Source: Pseudomonadota bacterium
GTDB lineage: Bacteria; Pseudomonadota; Gammaproteobacteria; Xanthomonadales; Rhodanobacteraceae
Reading direction: 5' to 3'
Assembly (NCBI GenBank): GCA_021793575.1
Contig: JAJYSM010000030.1
Coordinates: 1-36,953, forward strand
Length of the DNA: 36,953 bases
Shown here: piece after piece, positions 25,825 to 34,386 of the stretch
How the letters are laid out: each line of letters opens with the position of its first letter
Numbering within the stretch: position 1 is the stretch's first letter
Notes under the pieces: model-generated
Databases searched by the model: none
The model's input: only the letters and a program-made list of their open reading frames with translations
Told to the model about the DNA's origin: nothing
Made by a program: the position numbers and the translations under genes

Positions 25825-26359
25825 ATGTCGCCCCTAACGAATGGCGTTGATCGCCGCTGCAGATGAACCAGGAAAGTGCGCGCGGACATGCCGGCGGACC
25901 AACCCGGTTGAATGGCGCCGCCGCACGGACGGCCAGAAACCCGCAGGCTCTTGCCCGGGATAGTAAGCGTGGCGCAGCGGATTTCAAATGACTATCGCAG
26001 ATTCTGCGCGGTCGATGATCGGCGCGCGCGGCGGCCGGCACGGGCTGCCCACACGCCGAGGCGCAAGCACATGCGCGCAGCCGGCCGAGAACAAAATCCG
26101 CTGGCGGAAGCTCGTCTTGCCCGCCTGCGTCGAGCGTCTTGCCGCGGCATCGGCCACGCCGTGCCTTGCAGTTGCTTGATTTGCATCATGGCAATCACGG
26201 CACCCAAGGCCGAGGATGCAGACATCTTTACTTGACGATACGCGCGATGCACACCCCCCGAAAATTCTGGCCGGAACCGGCACCACTGCTCGCCCGGGTG
26301 CCGCCGCGTGGCAGCGTCGGCATGGCTGCTTCAGCGGGCACGCTGCCTGAGCCCACGAC
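25825..26359. other. Divergent intergenic region, wspA / decarboxylase
   Basis: 535 bases with no credible gene. It should carry the leftward wsp promoter and the rightward decarboxylase promoter. The only clear motif is the FNR-like box at 26176-26189. I see no sigma-54 site and no convincing sigma-70 pair for wspA. Confidence 0.6.
26176..26189. promoter_or_regulatory. FNR/Anr-like box upstream of the decarboxylase operon
   Basis: TTGATTTGCATCAT matches TTGAT-N4-ATCAA at 9 of 10 fixed bases. It sits within a longer imperfect palindrome (TTGC before it, GGCAA after it). GAGGAT at 26212-26217, 32 bases from the centre, is a weak -10 candidate. The leader to ATG 26360 would be about 135 bases. 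Confidence 0.5.
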
Positions 26360-28342
26360 ATGAGCGCGGCCGTGCCGATGCCGACGCCGGAGCCGCGCGA
26401 CCACACGCTGGACGCGTGCTTCCTCGGCCCCTACGGCGAGAACGACGCGCTGCTGGAAAGGCTGATGGTGGAGTTTCTGCGCGACCACGTGTACTGGCGG
26501 CGCAACTTTCATCCGGAGGATCCGCCGGCGATCGCCACCGCCGCTGCACACCATCCCGATTACCTCGCGTTCGAGGCGCGCATGCGCCGCGAGCTGCATC
26601 AGCTGTCCGCCGCGCTGAAGAAATCGGTGCCGTTCCACAGCCCGCGCTACATCGGCCACATGGCCTCCGACCTGCTGCTGCCCGGGCTGGCCGCGCAGAT
26701 GCTGACATTGCCGTACAACCCCAACAACGTCAGCGAGGATGCCGCGCCGGTCACCGTGGACATGGAGGTGCAGGTGGGCCTGCAGCTGGCGCGCATGCTC
26801 GGTTATCCGCACGACCCGGCACAGCCGGCGTGTGCGTTCGGCCACCTCGCCTCCGGCGGTTCGCTGGCGAACTACCAGGCACTGCGGCTGGCGCTGGCGC
26901 TGAAGGCGTTTCCGGTGGCGCTGCGTGCCGCCGGCGTGCCGGAGCTGGCGTTGCCGGTCGACGACTGGAGTGCCTTCAACCTGGCGGCGGCGGACACCAT
27001 CGTGCTGCTGGAACAGTGGCACGCATGGCTGGCCGCGCAGTCGCCGGAGCAGCGCGCGCACTGGCTGACGCGGGTGGAGGCGGAGCGGATCGAGCAGCGC
27101 GGGCTGGTCGGCTTCTTCGCCGCGCATCCGGAGCTGCGCGTGCCGCTGGTGCTGGCGCCGGTCACCGCGCACTACTCGTGGAGCAAGGGCCTTAAGCTGC
27201 TCGGCCTCGGCCGCGAGCAACTGCACCTGCTGCCGACCTGCGGCATGCGGCTGGATCTGGCGGCACTGCGTGACACGCTGGCACGCTGCGCGCACGAACG
27301 CCAGCCGGTGCTGATGTGCGTGGCGGTGCTGGGCAGCACCGAATACGGCACCATCGACCCGATCGACGCGGTGCTCGCCGCACGCGCACACGCGCGCACG
27401 CAGGGCGTGGATTTTTCCGTGCACGTGGACGCGGCGTGGGGCGGCTACCTGGCCACCCTGTTCCGGCACGAGGACGGCAGCCTGCGCAGCCGCGCCGAGG
27501 TGGCATCGGACTACGTGCAGTTTCCCACCCCGGCGGTGCATGCGGCGTTTGCCGCGCTGGCCGATACCGACTCGGCCACGGTCGATCCGCACAAGCTCGG
27601 CTATCTGCCCTACGGCGCCGGCGCCTTCATCTGCCGCGACCATCGCGCGATGGCGCTGCTGGCCGAGCGCGCCGACTACGTGTTTCACGGCAGCACGCCC
27701 GACAGCTACCTCGCGCGCTATCGCAGCCTGGGCCAGTTCGTGCCGGAGGGCTCCAAGTCCGGCGCGGCGGCGGCGGCGGTCTACGTCACGCACAAGGTGC
27801 TGCCGCTGGATCATCGCCACTTCGGCCGGCTGCCGCGCGCCACCGTGCGCGCGGCCGAGGCTTTCCACGCCTGCGCGCAGCGGTTTGCGCTCGACATCGC
27901 CGACCAGCTGCACGTGCTGGTGCCGTTCGCGCCGGACAGCAACCTGGTCTGCCTTGCGCTCAACCCCCGCGGCAGTCACAGCGTGGCGCAGGCCAACGCC
28001 TACGTGCGCGCGCTGCACGACACGCTGCGCTGCGACCCGAGCCAACCGCTGCAGACGAAGGAGTTCTTCGGCTCGGTGACCAGCCTGCGGCCGCAGATGC
28101 TGGGCGCGGCCGACACCGCGCGCATTCTGGCGGCCCTGCAGCTGGATCCGCACAGCCTGACCCCGGACGAGGGCAGCGACCGGCTGGTGATCCTGCGCCA
28201 TACCTTGATGAACCCGTACCTGATCGATCACGAGAACGGCATCAGCTACATCGAACGCTACTTCGAGTTCCTCGGTCACCGCGCGCGCGCGCTGGCCGTC
28301 ACCGCCAGCACCGGCATCCCCGCCGATCGGAGCCTTCCATGA
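26360..28342 (+). CDS. Group II PLP-dependent decarboxylase
   Basis: A 660-aa fold-type I decarboxylase, which removes CO2 from an amino acid to give an amine. The PLP lysine is K412 in VDPHKLGYLPYGAGA, and the cofactor-contacting Asp is in VHVDAAWGGY (about 355-364). The N-terminal part has SPRYIGHMASDLLLPGLAAQ, a substrate-pocket region of this group. Length exceeds plain glutamate decarboxylase and is nearer bacterial tyrosine decarboxylases (~620 aa). Substrate is not known; aromatic amino acids are plausible because a prephenate dehydrogenase lies two genes on. Its stop overlaps the next start (ATGA). An FNR-like box lies upstream. The ribosome site before 26360 is weak. Confidence 0.85.
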   Translation: MSAAVPMPTPEPRDHTLDACFLGPYGENDALLERLMVEFLRDHVYWRRNFHPEDPPAIATAAAHHPDYLAFEARMRRELHQLSAALKKSVPFHSPRYIGHMASDLLLPGLAAQMLTLPYNPNNVSEDAAPVTVDMEVQVGLQLARMLGYPHDPAQPACAFGHLASGGSLANYQALRLALALKAFPVALRAAGVPELALPVDDWSAFNLAAADTIVLLEQWHAWLAAQSPEQRAHWLTRVEAERIEQRGLVGFFAAHPELRVPLVLAPVTAHYSWSKGLKLLGLGREQLHLLPTCGMRLDLAALRDTLARCAHERQPVLMCVAVLGSTEYGTIDPIDAVLAARAHARTQGVDFSVHVDAAWGGYLATLFRHEDGSLRSRAEVASDYVQFPTPAVHAAFAALADTDSATVDPHKLGYLPYGAGAFICRDHRAMALLAERADYVFHGSTPDSYLARYRSLGQFVPEGSKSGAAAAAVYVTHKVLPLDHRHFGRLPRATVRAAEAFHACAQRFALDIADQLHVLVPFAPDSNLVCLALNPRGSHSVAQANAYVRALHDTLRCDPSQPLQTKEFFGSVTSLRPQMLGAADTARILAALQLDPHSLTPDEGSDRLVILRHTLMNPYLIDHENGISYIERYFEFLGHRARALAVTASTGIPADRSLP

Positions 28343-29570: not shown

Positions 29571-30350
29571 ATGTCGTTTGCGATCCTCGGCTTCGGCCGC
29601 TTCGGCCGCGCCCTCACCGACCTGCTGCTCGACGCCGGGCATCGCGTGCGCGCCTACGACCCCCACGCCAGCGTACCGGGCGCGCTGGCCGCCGACTCCG
29701 CGACTGCCGCGATCGACGGCGTGCCATGGGTCGTGCTGGCCATGCCGGTGCCACACATGCGCAGCGCGTTGCAGGCGCTGCGCCCGCATCTGCACGCCGG
29801 ACAGACCGTCATCGACGTGGGCAGCGTGAAGATGCACCCTTGCGCGATCATGGACGAGCTGCTCGGCGCGGAGATCCCGCATGCCGGTACGCACCCGCTG
29901 TTCGGCCCGCTCAGCCTGGCCCGCGGCGAACGCCCGTTGCGCACGGTGATCTGTGCCAGCCCGCGGCACCCCGATGCTGCTGCGCGCGCGCAGCAGCTGT
30001 TTGCCGATCTCGGCTGCGAAGTGATCGGGCAGGATCCGGCCACCCACGACCGCGCCATGGCAAACACGCACGCACTCGCCTTCTTTCTCGCCAAGGGCCT
30101 GGTCGACATGGGCGTGGATGACGACATGACGCTGGCACCGCCCTCGTTCCAGGGCCTGAAGCACATGCTGGCCGCGGTGCGCGGCGATGCCGGCCACCTG
30201 TTTGCCGCGATCCAACAGGAAAACCCCTTTGCCACCGAGGCCCGCGCGCGGCTGCTGGAGTCGCTGCAGCTGATCCATCGCAAGCTGCTCACCGAAGGCG
30301 ACGAGAGCGGTCAGCTGGCCATCCCCAACCATCCCGAGTCCGCCGCATGA
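29571..30350 (+). CDS. Short prephenate/arogenate dehydrogenase (TyrA-like)
   Basis: A 259-aa NAD(P)-dependent dehydrogenase that would turn prephenate into 4-hydroxyphenylpyruvate, or arogenate into tyrosine. The Rossmann motif is [11 protein letters not shown] (residues 4-14); Asp in RAYDPH after the second strand suggests [14 protein letters not shown] and [11 protein letters not shown] are TyrA motifs; the latter resembles plant-type short TyrA. It lacks both a chorismate mutase domain and an ACT domain, so feedback by tyrosine may be absent. It lies 113 bases after the PLP enzyme and overlaps ubiD by four bases, which suggests a link with aromatic or quinone metabolism. Confidence 0.88.
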
Positions 30351-31866: not shown

Positions 31867-31970
31867 GTGGGAGCGACTTCAGTCGCGATGCTCTTGTTCC
31901 GATGCTGCATCAAAGCAAAGGCATCGGTGCTGCATCAAAGCAAGAGCATCGCGACTGAAGTCGCTCCCAC
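31867..31970. repeat. REP-type inverted pair (BIME-like hairpin)
   Basis: Perfect 30-base inverted arms, 31867-31896 and 31941-31970. Each arm starts GTGGGAGCGACTTCAGTCGC and has its own small hairpin (GCGACT/AGTCGC). The 44-base loop holds a second inverted pair (CCGATGC at 31899, GCATCGG at 31921) and a direct repeat of TGCTGCATCAAAGCAA. This is the type of element spread by RAYT enzymes. It lies 48 bases after the ubiD stop and could act as a terminator or mRNA stabiliser. Confidence 0.9.
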
Positions 31971-32017: not shown

Positions 32018-32308
32018 CTACACGGGAGCCGGGGTTGCGGGTACCGGCAACGCCCGCGCGCGCACCTGCAGGGCGCGCCAGGAGCTCTCCCACTGACCGT
32101 CGCGCGGGGTCGACCACGCCAGCTGCGACAGCACCGCCTGTGCGGCCAGCAGCTGCTGCCGCAGCTCCTGCATGGCGTCCAGCACGCGCTGATGCTCGTC
32201 CTTGCCCACCATCAGGATCTTGCGGTCGCGACAGACGCCGATGCACGGCTGCGGCGCCTCGATCTTGCCGCAGCCGATGCATTGCCATGCCTCGATGTAT
32301 CCGCTCAT
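32018..32308 (-). CDS. Small four-cysteine protein divergent from ubiU
   Basis: A 96-aa protein I do not recognise. The N-terminus has four cysteines, C10, C13, C22 and C26 (WQCIGCGKIEAPQPCIGVCRD), a pattern suited to zinc or an iron-sulfur centre. Residues 38-62 form a likely helix (HQRVLDAMQELRQQLLAAQ), and the C-terminal third is less ordered. ATG 32308 starts MSGYIEAWQC; an upstream in-frame start at 32380 would add 24 Arg-rich residues. It is transcribed away from ubiU across a 181-base gap holding an FNR-like box. TAGCAT (complement of 32396-32401) lies exactly 32 bases from the box centre on its side. An accessory role in anaerobic ubiquinone synthesis is inference. Confidence 0.75.
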   Translation of the reverse strand: MSGYIEAWQCIGCGKIEAPQPCIGVCRDRKILMVGKDEHQRVLDAMQELRQQLLAAQAVLSQLAWSTPRDGQWESSWRALQVRARALPVPATPAPV

Positions 32309-32423
32309 GCCCGCCACCCCGCCGCTGTCGCGGCCAACCCGTATTTCTTCACGTCGACTCCGTGGATCCTGGCAACACATCTCTCACCCGCATGCATGCT
32401 AGTCGCTGTGGCGACCGCCGCAG

Positions 32424-32437
32424 CTGATCCATATCAA
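32424..32437. promoter_or_regulatory. FNR/Anr-like box between the four-Cys gene and ubiU
   Basis: CTGATCCATATCAA matches TTGAT-N4-ATCAA at 9 of 10 fixed bases. Leftward, TAGCAT (complement of 32396-32401) is 32 bases from the centre, right for class II activation. Rightward, GATACA at 32463-32468 is 35 bases away, slightly long. In E. coli the ubiUV genes are under Fnr control. Confidence 0.65.
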
Positions 32438-32489
32438 AGCGCCGACGCCCGGCAAGCCCCACGATACACACTGCCCTCCATACGCCGAG

Positions 32490-33494
32490 ATGCCCATGCA
32501 ACTGGTTTGTCCTGCTGGCAACCTGCCGGCGCTGCAAGCAGCGATCGACGCCGGCGCCGATGCGGTCTACGCAGGCTTGCGCGATCAGACCAACGCGCGC
32601 GCCTTCCCCGGACTGAACTTCGATGACGCGGAGTTGCGCGCCGGCATGGCCTACGCGCATCAGCGCGGGCGGCAGGTCTATCTGGCGCTGAACACCTACC
32701 CTGACAGCGCGCGGATGAGCCAGTGGTATGCGGCGGTGGACAAGGCGGCCGAGTTCGGCTGCGACGCGATCATCGCCGCCGAGCTGGCGGTGCTCGATTA
32801 CGCCGCGCGCACGCATCCGGCGATGAAACGGCATCTGTCGGTGCAGGGTTCGGCCACCACCGCCGCGGCGCTGCGCTACATGCACGAACGCTTTGGCATC
32901 AGCCGCGCGGTGCTGCCGCGGGTGTTGTCGATCCAGCAGGTGGAGCGCCTGTGCGAAGGCTCGCCGGTGCCGCTGGAAGTGTTCGCGTTCGGCAGCCTGT
33001 GCATCATGGTCGAGGGGCGCTGCCAGCTGTCCAGCTACGTCACCGGCGCTTCGCCGAACCGCCAGGGCGTGTGCTCGCCGGCGAAGTTCGTGCGCTGGGA
33101 AGAACACGCCGACGGCCGTCGCAGCGTGCGCCTGAACCACGTGCTGATCGACCGCTTCGAGCCGCAGGAACCGGCCGGCTATCCGACCGTGTGCAAGGGC
33201 CGCTTCGAGGTCGGCGGCGAGATCTTCCACGCGCTGGAGGAGCCGACCAGCCTCAACACGCTGGAGCTGCTGCCGCGCCTGGCGCAAGCCGGCGTGGCGG
33301 CGCTGAAGATCGAGGGCCGCCAGCGCGGCGTGGCTTATGTCGGCTCGGTCACCCGCACCTGGCGCGCGGCGCTGGACCGCTACCGCGACGCGCCCGCCAG
33401 CTGGAGCCTGCAGCCGGGCTGGCAGCCGTCGTTGGCGCAGCATGCCGAAGGTCACCAGACCACGCTCGGCCCCTACCACCGCGCCTGGCATTGA
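32490..33494 (+). CDS. ubiU: UbiU: oxygen-independent ubiquinone hydroxylation subunit
   Basis: A U32-peptidase-like protein that with UbiV hydroxylates the ubiquinone ring without oxygen, using prephenate as donor in E. coli. The 334-aa protein begins LVCPAGNLPALQAAIDAGADAVYAG. The four 4Fe-4S cysteines are C171, C178, C195 and C235 (GSLCIMVEGRC, RQGVCSP, PTVCKGR); counted from the internal ATG at 32496 they are 169, 176, 193 and 233, nearly the E. coli numbering, so either start is possible. It is 13 bases from ubiV on the same strand. ubiT, usually nearby, is not in the window. Confidence 0.93.
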   Translation: MPMQLVCPAGNLPALQAAIDAGADAVYAGLRDQTNARAFPGLNFDDAELRAGMAYAHQRGRQVYLALNTYPDSARMSQWYAAVDKAAEFGCDAIIAAELAVLDYAARTHPAMKRHLSVQGSATTAAALRYMHERFGISRAVLPRVLSIQQVERLCEGSPVPLEVFAFGSLCIMVEGRCQLSSYVTGASPNRQGVCSPAKFVRWEEHADGRRSVRLNHVLIDRFEPQEPAGYPTVCKGRFEVGGEIFHALEEPTSLNTLELLPRLAQAGVAALKIEGRQRGVAYVGSVTRTWRAALDRYRDAPASWSLQPGWQPSLAQHAEGHQTTLGPYHRAWH

Positions 33495-33507: not shown

Positions 33508-34386
33508 ATGCAACTGAGCCTGGGACCCCTGCAGTATTTCTGGCCGCGCGAACGCACGCTGGCGTTCTACCGCGAAGCCGCCGACTGGCCGGTGGAAATC
33601 ATCTATCTGGGCGAGACGGTGTGCAGCAAGCGGCGCGAGCTGGGCACACGCGACTGGATCGCGCTGGCCGAGGAGCTGGTCGGCAGCGGCAAGCAGATCG
33701 TGCTGTCGTCGCTGGCCCTGATCGAGGCCGAGTCGGAGCTGGGGGTGCTGAAGCGACTGGTCGGGCACGGCGGATTCTGGATCGAGGCGAACGACCTGTC
33801 GGCGGTGCAACTGTGCCGCGAGCAGGGTCTGCCATTTGTCGGCGGGCCCACGCTCAATATCTACAACCACCACGCCCTCGCCCTGCTGATGGACGACGGC
33901 CTGCGCCGCTGGGTGCCCGGCGTGGAGCAGGGCCATGTGCTGCTGCGCGAACTGCGCGAGGCGATGCAGGGCGCCCAGCGCAACATGCCGCAGCTGGAGC
34001 TGATCGCATTCGGCCGGCTGCCGCTGGCGTATTCGGCGCGCTGCTTCACCGCACGCGCGCTCGACGTGGCCAAGGATCAGTGCGATTTCCGCTGCATCGA
34101 ATACCCCGACGGCATGCCGCTGGCCACCCGCGAGGGCACCCCGTTCCTGCGCATCAATGGCATCCAGATCCAGGGCGAGGAAATCACCGATCTCGGCCCC
34201 GAGCTGCCCACCCTGCGCGAGCTGGGCGTGGACATCCTGCGGCTGTATCCGCAGCTCGACGGCATGGCCGAGGTGGTCGCGCATTTCGACGCCGCCCGCC
34301 GCGCGCCAGCGGCGCCATCGCGCATCGGCGCCCGCAACGGCTACTGGCACGGCGAGCCGGGCATGCAGCCAAGCAGCTTGGCGTAA
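33508..34386 (+). CDS. ubiV: UbiV: oxygen-independent ubiquinone hydroxylation subunit
   Basis: Partner of UbiU in the heterodimer that adds ring hydroxyls under anoxia. The 292-aa protein starts [12 protein letters not shown]. The four iron-sulfur cysteines are C39 (GETVCSKR), C179 (YSARCFTA), C192 and C196 ([11 protein letters not shown]), almost the same numbers as in E. coli UbiV. ATG 33508 follows GAGAGG. The C-terminal 25 residues are Ala/Pro/Arg-rich and probably disordered. Together with UbiD just upstream this makes a quinone-synthesis neighbourhood. Confidence 0.93.

Follow-up and report, generated by a model that had tools for sequence, protein, structure and literature searches.

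This locus raises the question why P1, a small four-cysteine protein, is encoded back to back with ubiU, and which anaerobic process it serves. The window, i.e., the whole stretch of DNA that was analysed, comprises 36,953 nt (Table 1). According to the original prediction, a metal-binding protein made under the same signal as the iron-sulfur proteins UbiU and UbiV could be their assembly or electron-transfer factor.

Table 1. Features of the P1-ubiU region, with positions in the window.
Feature	Position	Strand	Description
P1	32018..32308	minus	96 aa; CxxC-x8-C-x3-C, then a predicted helical hairpin
FNR/DNR-type box CTGATCCATATCAA	32424..32437	none	9/10 consensus positions; probable shared operator of two divergent class-II promoters
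-10-like TAGCAT, putative P1 promoter	32396..32401	minus	22 bases from the edge of the box, 32 from its centre
-10-like CACGAT, putative ubiU promoter	32460..32465	plus	22 bases from the box, on the opposite side
ubiU	32490..33494	plus	NCBIfam NF047963, 528.7 bits (cut-off 440)
ubiV	33508..34386	plus	NCBIfam NF047965, 349.7 bits (cut-off 275)
ubiD-type decarboxylase, convergent with P1	30347..31819	plus	PF01977, PF20695, PF20696; TIGR00148 over cut-off

A small protein family with four invariant cysteines

Translation of the P1 reading frame places its cysteines at C10, C13, C22 and C26. A longer reading of 120 aa from an upstream ATG is likewise open, and the alignment described below favours the 96-aa start as the probable one. 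P1 is the only match to itself in its 3.2-Mb genome. A collection of genomes was scanned for relatives with two peptide patterns, which contain C10, C13 and C22 and leave out C26 and P68. This yielded 159 relatives among 170 pattern matches. The best 80 of the 159 were retained as loci for the alignment and the study of neighbouring genes; they are the nearest to P1, which biases any count on this set towards Rhodanobacteraceae. Alignment of P1 with relatives from 57 of the 80 loci (58 sequences) showed that W8, C10, G12, C13, G14, C22, G24, C26 and P68 are invariant, where the conservation of C10, C13 and C22 is partly selected for by the scan patterns. A recount found the motif CxxC-x8-C-x3-C in 58/58 rows. 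The predicted 96-aa protein with this motif is thus borne out by translation and alignment, as is the conservation of its cysteines, which was among the proposed checks.

Searches of Pfam, NCBIfam, PHROGs and the PDB sequences gave no significant match to P1, in line with its original description as unrecognised, and the best Pfam E-value across the 58 aligned members was 0.0044. No paper describing the family was found in the literature searched, where a nameless family can be found only via its neighbours and their names; the excerpts of PMC8575079 and PMC6747719 contained nothing relevant to the neighbours of P1. P1 is a real family without a name. Its relatives occur in records titled Rhodanobacter, Dyella, Frateuria, Fulvimonas, Tahibacter, Dokdonella, Oleiagrimonas and Sinimarinibacterium, and in metagenome-assembled genomes labelled Burkholderiales, Rhodocyclaceae and Betaproteobacteria. 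P1 is present in 54 of the 147 genomes searched from its own taxonomic family and in 4 of 398 genomes of a phylum-wide sample. No homologues were found on plasmids.

Two genomes of another family encode a protein with two P1 domains in tandem, both of which keep the cysteine spacing (L113-L116). Two distant stretches of a single Dyella jiangningensis record (CP007444.1; L048 and L049) have identical match positions and identities, which reflects either a duplication or an assembly artefact.

The AlphaFold2 model of P1 has a mean pLDDT of 81.4, with means of 74, 72 and 66 for the 10-residue blocks of residues 1-30. It predicts strands at residues 5-10 and 28-33, which flank the cysteines, followed by helices at 36-64 and 74-86. 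A Foldseek search of the PDB with this model gave nothing significant (best E 3.1), nor did a comparison with viral fold libraries. The first knuckle of P1 is an invariant CxxCG, the second is CxxxC. Zinc-ribbon and rubredoxin-like knuckle proteins share with P1 an aromatic residue and a CxxCG first knuckle as well as short flanking strands, which in P1 are predicted. P1 differs from them in its CxxxC second knuckle, its loop of 8 residues and the lack of a significant profile or fold match. The apparent likeness to a zinc ribbon comes from the CxxCG knuckle and from a sequence match to 2lcq that is not significant (E 1.9).

Alternatively, P1 might be a ferredoxin-like electron carrier with a 4Fe-4S or 2Fe-2S cluster, as its four invariant cysteines, its anaerobic context and a weak Fer4_2 match (E 0.35) could suggest. 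However, this match reaches 11.4 bits, far under the cut-off of 24.5, the predicted fold consists of two strands and a helical hairpin, and the cysteine spacing differs from the motif of ferredoxin domains. Among the 58 aligned members, Fer4_2 is matched at E up to 0.1 in two (best 0.039). We consider a ferredoxin unlikely. Zinc is favoured over an iron-sulfur cluster, as the CxxCG knuckle and the ferredoxin-unlike spacing would suggest. P1 most likely binds one zinc (or iron) through its four cysteines, which would form a short, ribbon-like knuckle on the helical hairpin.

The control region between P1 and ubiU

The FNR-like box that had been predicted between P1 and ubiU is real, and TAGCAT is found at the predicted 32 bases from its centre. 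Boxes were scored against the consensus TTGATNNNNATCAA, which has 10 scored positions. The 181-bp gap was shuffled 20,000 times by dinucleotides. A box as good as CTGATCCATATCAA arose in 0.135% of the shuffles, and the combination of a box with a -10 hexamer (4/6) at a spacing of 21-23 on either strand in 0.005%. The window has four boxes with at most one mismatch, versus 0.14 or 0.33 expected in two estimates.

The box is conserved in relatives. With a threshold of at least 7/10 and the centre of the box allowed at 52-81 bp from the ubiU Met at residue 3, a box (7-9/10) was detected in 18 of the 24 loci with a confident ubiU, namely the window and 17 relatives. Its centre lies 63-66 bp from this Met in 16 of the 18; the other two, L044 and L082, have their highest-scoring box at 81, and a further box (8/10) lies at 66 in L044. 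No box was found in the searched range at L043, L045, L048, L049, L052 and L092.

The -10 hexamers recur at the same spacing. On the side of P1 or of A3, a His-rich neighbour of P1 discussed below, a hexamer matching TATAAT in at least 4/6 positions is found at offset 22 in 9 of the 18 box loci, and no other offset between 14 and 33 gives more than 1 of the 18. On the ubiU side, 11 of the 18 have exactly CACGAT at offset 22. CACGAT is a 3/6 match to TATAAT, and 0/18 loci reach 4/6 at this offset; the mean TATAAT score on the ubiU side nevertheless peaks at offset 22 (2.39, next 1.83). This is further supported by a comparison within the same loci, in which a box scoring 8/10 or better, together with a -10 (4/6) at 21-23, preceded 17 of 79 P1 or A3-P1 units versus 37 of 961 other genes (p 9e-8, uncorrected for relatedness, with the 961 genes including genes inside operons and not only first genes). 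At other spacings between box and -10, the number of P1 or A3-P1 units was 0-2 of 79, and 62 of the 79 lack a box with a well-spaced -10. A plain count of 9/10 boxes gave a weaker signal (13 of 64 P1-cluster genes versus 100 of 1078 genes overall). In L044, L075, L082, L083 and L090, a separate box also lies 60-65 bp upstream of P1 itself.

Because the distance from the box to ubiU is constant, we considered that the box might belong to ubiU alone. This was dropped, since the -10 hexamer on the P1 side recurs at its exact spacing. The sequence has the features of class-II FNR/DNR promoters, namely a box near the consensus and a -10 hexamer at a conserved, fixed spacing, and CTGATCCATATCAA appears to be one operator serving two mirror-image, divergent class-II promoters. 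Judged by this predicted geometry, the proposal of an FNR-type control region shared with ubiU and ubiV holds for the window locus and its close relatives.

FNR and DNR recognise nearly the same box, and the candidate regulator of CTGATCCATATCAA is either of the two. As oxygen becomes scarce, one of these two related regulators would bind the palindrome and activate both divergent promoters, ubiUV and P1, with the box at about -41.5 for each. Both regulators are treated in PMC1274295, and PMC11707229 concerns FNR sites across Pseudomonadota. In Escherichia coli, the divergent ubiT and ubiUV operons are reported to be under FNR, with two FNR sites, F1 and F2 (PMC10470549). The P1-ubiU locus, with its predicted box, resembles this arrangement in having FNR-type control between divergent genes with ubiUV on one side. 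It differs in that the divergent gene is P1 instead of ubiT, and in that one box was found for both sides where E. coli has two sites.

A second 9/10 FNR-type box is located at 26176-26189 of the window, 171-184 bp upstream of a pyridoxal-dependent decarboxylase gene at 26360. A 9/10 box is also found in 9 of the 26 relatives of this gene for which 250 bp upstream were available. No -10 of 4/6 was found at class-II spacing from the box at 26176-26189.

Genes for ubiquinone synthesis and nitrite/NO respiration

The original prediction stated that ubiT was absent, which leaves room for a different partner of UbiU and UbiV. This is correct for the window but not for the genome. Contig C37 carries a reading frame (L118:1015-1872) in which a UbiT-type SCP2 domain (NF047962, 126.1 bits, cut-off 46.9) is fused to a chorismate mutase domain of type II at the N-terminus (PF01817, 48.4 bits, cut-off 27). 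Since the genome carries ubiT, the argument for a different partner falls. The same contig also encodes NirK and NorB, both over cut-off, a DGC-domain protein, a C-terminal fragment of HemN (TIGR00538, 220 bits, cut-off 325) and an Fnr-like regulator that scores below cut-off (NF008365, 186.8 bits versus 228).

The chorismate mutase-UbiT fusion is not confined to this genome, as both domains are over cut-off in five of six fusion-sized relatives as well (L032, L037, L046, L075 and L090); the sixth, L070, has SCP2 only. Members of the chorismate mutase/UbiT cluster are 279-306 aa long in 13 of 21 cases. Prephenate is the product of chorismate mutase. It is also reported to be the source of the hydroxyl groups in anaerobic ubiquinone synthesis (PMC11574389), and hence the fusion may supply UbiUV with their oxygen donor. 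This would fit the observation that three stretches without ubiU and ubiV carry a lone chorismate mutase domain (PF01817 over cut-off, no SCP2; L042:6754-7113, L047:6831-7127 and L050:6839-7135). No paper combining 'chorismate mutase' and 'ubiT' was found in the literature searched. The fusion bears on how the hydroxyl donor for anaerobic ubiquinone synthesis is supplied.

The window also has a prephenate-dehydrogenase-like gene at 29571-30350 (PF02153, 43.3 bits, cut-off 26.5), which lies just upstream of ubiD and ~2 kb from ubiU. The 3' ends of ubiD and P1 are separated by a 50-nt inverted repeat at 31867-31970 (86% complementary, 4 nt between the arms), resembling an extragenic palindrome.

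Co-occurrence of P1 with ubiU and ubiV, proposed as a check, was confirmed in the family but not in the class. Among the 147 family genomes, 54 have P1 and 39 have UbiV; both are found in 32, UbiV only in 7 and P1 only in 22. Hence, the tie between P1 and UbiUV is real inside the Rhodanobacteraceae genomes. In contrast, a class-wide sample of 369 genomes contains 94 with UbiV, 3 with P1 and 2 with both, counting P1 from at most 14 scored candidates per genome, so that divergent copies may be missed. These two are the window's own genome and G680, where P1 and UbiV are on different contigs. The 92 of 94 UbiV genomes without a detectable P1 imply that P1 is not a general need of UbiUV.

The association with nitrite and NO reductase genes is stronger. 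NirK is over cut-off in 70 of the 147 family genomes and in 48 of the 54 with P1; for NorB the numbers are 68 and 43. NirK is present in 21 of the 22 P1 genomes without UbiV, and in 17 of the 86 that lack both P1 and UbiV. On the other hand, 6 of the 54 P1 genomes lack a NirK over cut-off, and 4 lack both NirK and NorB. Among the 39 UbiV genomes an association of P1 with NirK is absent (p 0.59), and among the NirK genomes UbiV is found in 27 of 48 with P1 versus 5 of 22 without (p 0.011), where the relatedness of the family genomes means that such Fisher p-values overstate the evidence. Taken together, P1 appears to track nitrite/NO respiration more closely than ubiquinone synthesis.

These patterns bear on the proposal that P1 serves the Fe-S proteins UbiU and UbiV exclusively, in their assembly or in electron transfer. 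Its divergent position and shared promoter region are as expected for such a factor, and so are its presence in 32 of the 39 family genomes with UbiV, its association with UbiV within the NirK genomes, and the presence of UbiV in 5 of the 6 P1 genomes outside the NirK group. However, P1 went undetected in nearly all UbiV genomes of the class (92/94), 22 of the 54 P1 genomes have no UbiV, and the tie to NirK (48/54) is the stronger one. Adjacency, the other proposed check, also failed in most other genomes, as no more than 2.5 kb separates UbiV from P1 in only 14 of the 54 P1 genomes, and no more than 20 kb in 18. Moreover, the genome has its UbiT, and P1 itself has no U32 or SCP2/UbiT match in Pfam or NCBIfam, which argues against a component of UbiUVT. 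A factor dedicated to UbiUV is therefore improbable.

The genes around P1 in its relatives give a similar picture. Clusters of neighbours were named from one searched representative each or from the window's own protein, and some of the retained contigs are only a few kilobases long. Among the best 80 of the 159 loci, recurrent neighbours were A3 (30), UbiD (27), SirB (24), UbiU (23), UbiV (22) and Fnr (22), followed by qNor (20), HemN (19), NnrS (15) and NirK (12). The chorismate mutase/UbiT cluster (21) and the prephenate-dehydrogenase-like gene (18) are also found near P1. Just as frequent are two fatty-acid-synthesis-like clusters (29 each), which resemble fabA and fabB, and the pyridoxal-dependent decarboxylase (27); these are unrelated to denitrification and speak against a specific tie to it. 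At least one of Fnr, NorB, HemN, NnrS and NirK occurs in 41 of the 80 loci and ubiU or ubiV in 24, with both groups in 16 and neither in 31.

An alternative explanation might be that P1 is part of a quinone-supply cluster of Rhodanobacteraceae (ubiU, ubiV, ubiD and the prephenate-dehydrogenase-like gene), and that its tie to denitrification merely reflects the need for ubiquinone. The frequencies of ubiD (27/80) and of the prephenate-dehydrogenase-like gene (18/80) would fit such a cluster, as would four loci (L035, L047, L050 and L051) in which P1 lies beside ubiD with no ubiU in the stretch covered. Yet, in the betaproteobacterial and more distant loci inspected, 19 of them listed, the genes close to P1 either belong to nitrate/NO metabolism or are unrelated; a single ubiU was found there, a partial copy at the edge of L092 and 9.3 kb from P1. 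Moreover, the commonest immediate neighbour of P1 is A3, not a ubi gene. We therefore see little chance that P1 belongs to quinone supply as such.

Outside Rhodanobacteraceae, P1 is found at L096 near NarL (over cut-off), a NarQ/NarX-like kinase and NnrS, while the NarL-like and kinase genes near P1 at L093 score just or well under cut-off. Hemerythrin is encoded near P1 at L099 and a COX1-family protein at L101. L085 has hemerythrin, an Fe-S assembly protein and DUF2249, presumably the same as COG4309. Rodionov et al. linked COG4309 to NO reductase (PMC1274295). At the other distant loci inspected, no genes of these kinds were found near P1.

Possible roles of P1 and its neighbour A3

P1 is probably a small, cytoplasmic, metal-binding accessory protein of the regulon for anaerobic nitrite/NO respiration. 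It would act there as an accessory, adaptor or protective factor; no match to a family, fold or experiment names its function. A nameless but strictly conserved family would thereby join the proteins likely to take part in denitrification in Rhodanobacteraceae and some related bacteria. The locus also points to an FNR-type operator that apparently serves two divergent promoters with mirror-image geometry.

Alternatively, P1 could be a small regulator that senses redox state or NO and tunes the anaerobic response by binding Fnr, DNR or a different regulator. The precedent is AnvM (PA3880) of Pseudomonas aeruginosa, a DGC protein of 131 aa with 11 cysteines, which is strongly induced by anoxia, encoded near narXL and reported to bind Anr (PMC6650552). 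P1 has the same kind of regulon context, it is likewise small and cysteine-rich, its AlphaFold2 model has a helical segment suited to protein contacts, and an Fnr-type gene is found in 22 of the 80 retained loci. However, P1 is not AnvM, and a DGC protein is encoded elsewhere in the window's genome. A regulator of this kind seems rather unlikely.

The regulon had suggested that P1 might be AnvM itself. This was rejected, as the DGC domain PF08859 of AnvM was not matched by P1 and is missing from the 22 families that the 58 aligned members hit. The names 'DnrO/DnrP' may stand for A3/P1-like genes. DnrP of P. aeruginosa (PA0526) appears in one table row of PMC8575079 as an uncharacterised protein among the anaerobic-regulon genes, a setting similar to that proposed for P1.

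Returning to P1 as an accessory protein of nitrite/NO respiration, many of its relatives are the second gene of a pair, of which the first encodes A3. A3 is the commonest immediate neighbour of P1. In 28 of the 54 P1 genomes of the family it is the next gene upstream, no more than 700 bp away and on the same strand. Overall, A3 is found in 42 of the 147 family genomes, 32 of them with P1. The window's genome gave no match to A3, and P1 probably came to face ubiU directly through the loss of A3. Two genomes of the same genus, G126 and G146, have A3 near ubiV and no P1 match.

A3 is rich in histidine and looks exported by its hydrophobic N-terminus. Its residues C96 and H107 are invariant in 26 aligned members, and it is predicted to form a helical bundle (mean pLDDT 85.1). 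No Pfam family was over cut-off. A fold search against the PDB gave nothing significant (best E 0.29), although NiSOD and cytochrome c' ranked high; this result is suggestive of a four-helix bundle only. Possibly, A3 and P1 form an undescribed two-compartment module for nitrite/NO, in which an exported, cytochrome-c'-like four-helix bundle with conserved His and Cys and a cytoplasmic Cys4 protein are tied to anaerobic ubiquinone synthesis through a single bidirectional FNR/DNR operator. We put this forward tentatively, as a less likely extension of the accessory role of P1. If it is true, quinone supply and NO handling would rise together from one binding site.

A3-like matches occur in six plasmid records, three of which were inspected for their context; it was uninformative in two. 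In the third, from Thiothrix, the A3-like match lies ~5 kb or less from genes of the NorQ family and with a VWA domain, and is next but one to a truncated hemoglobin.
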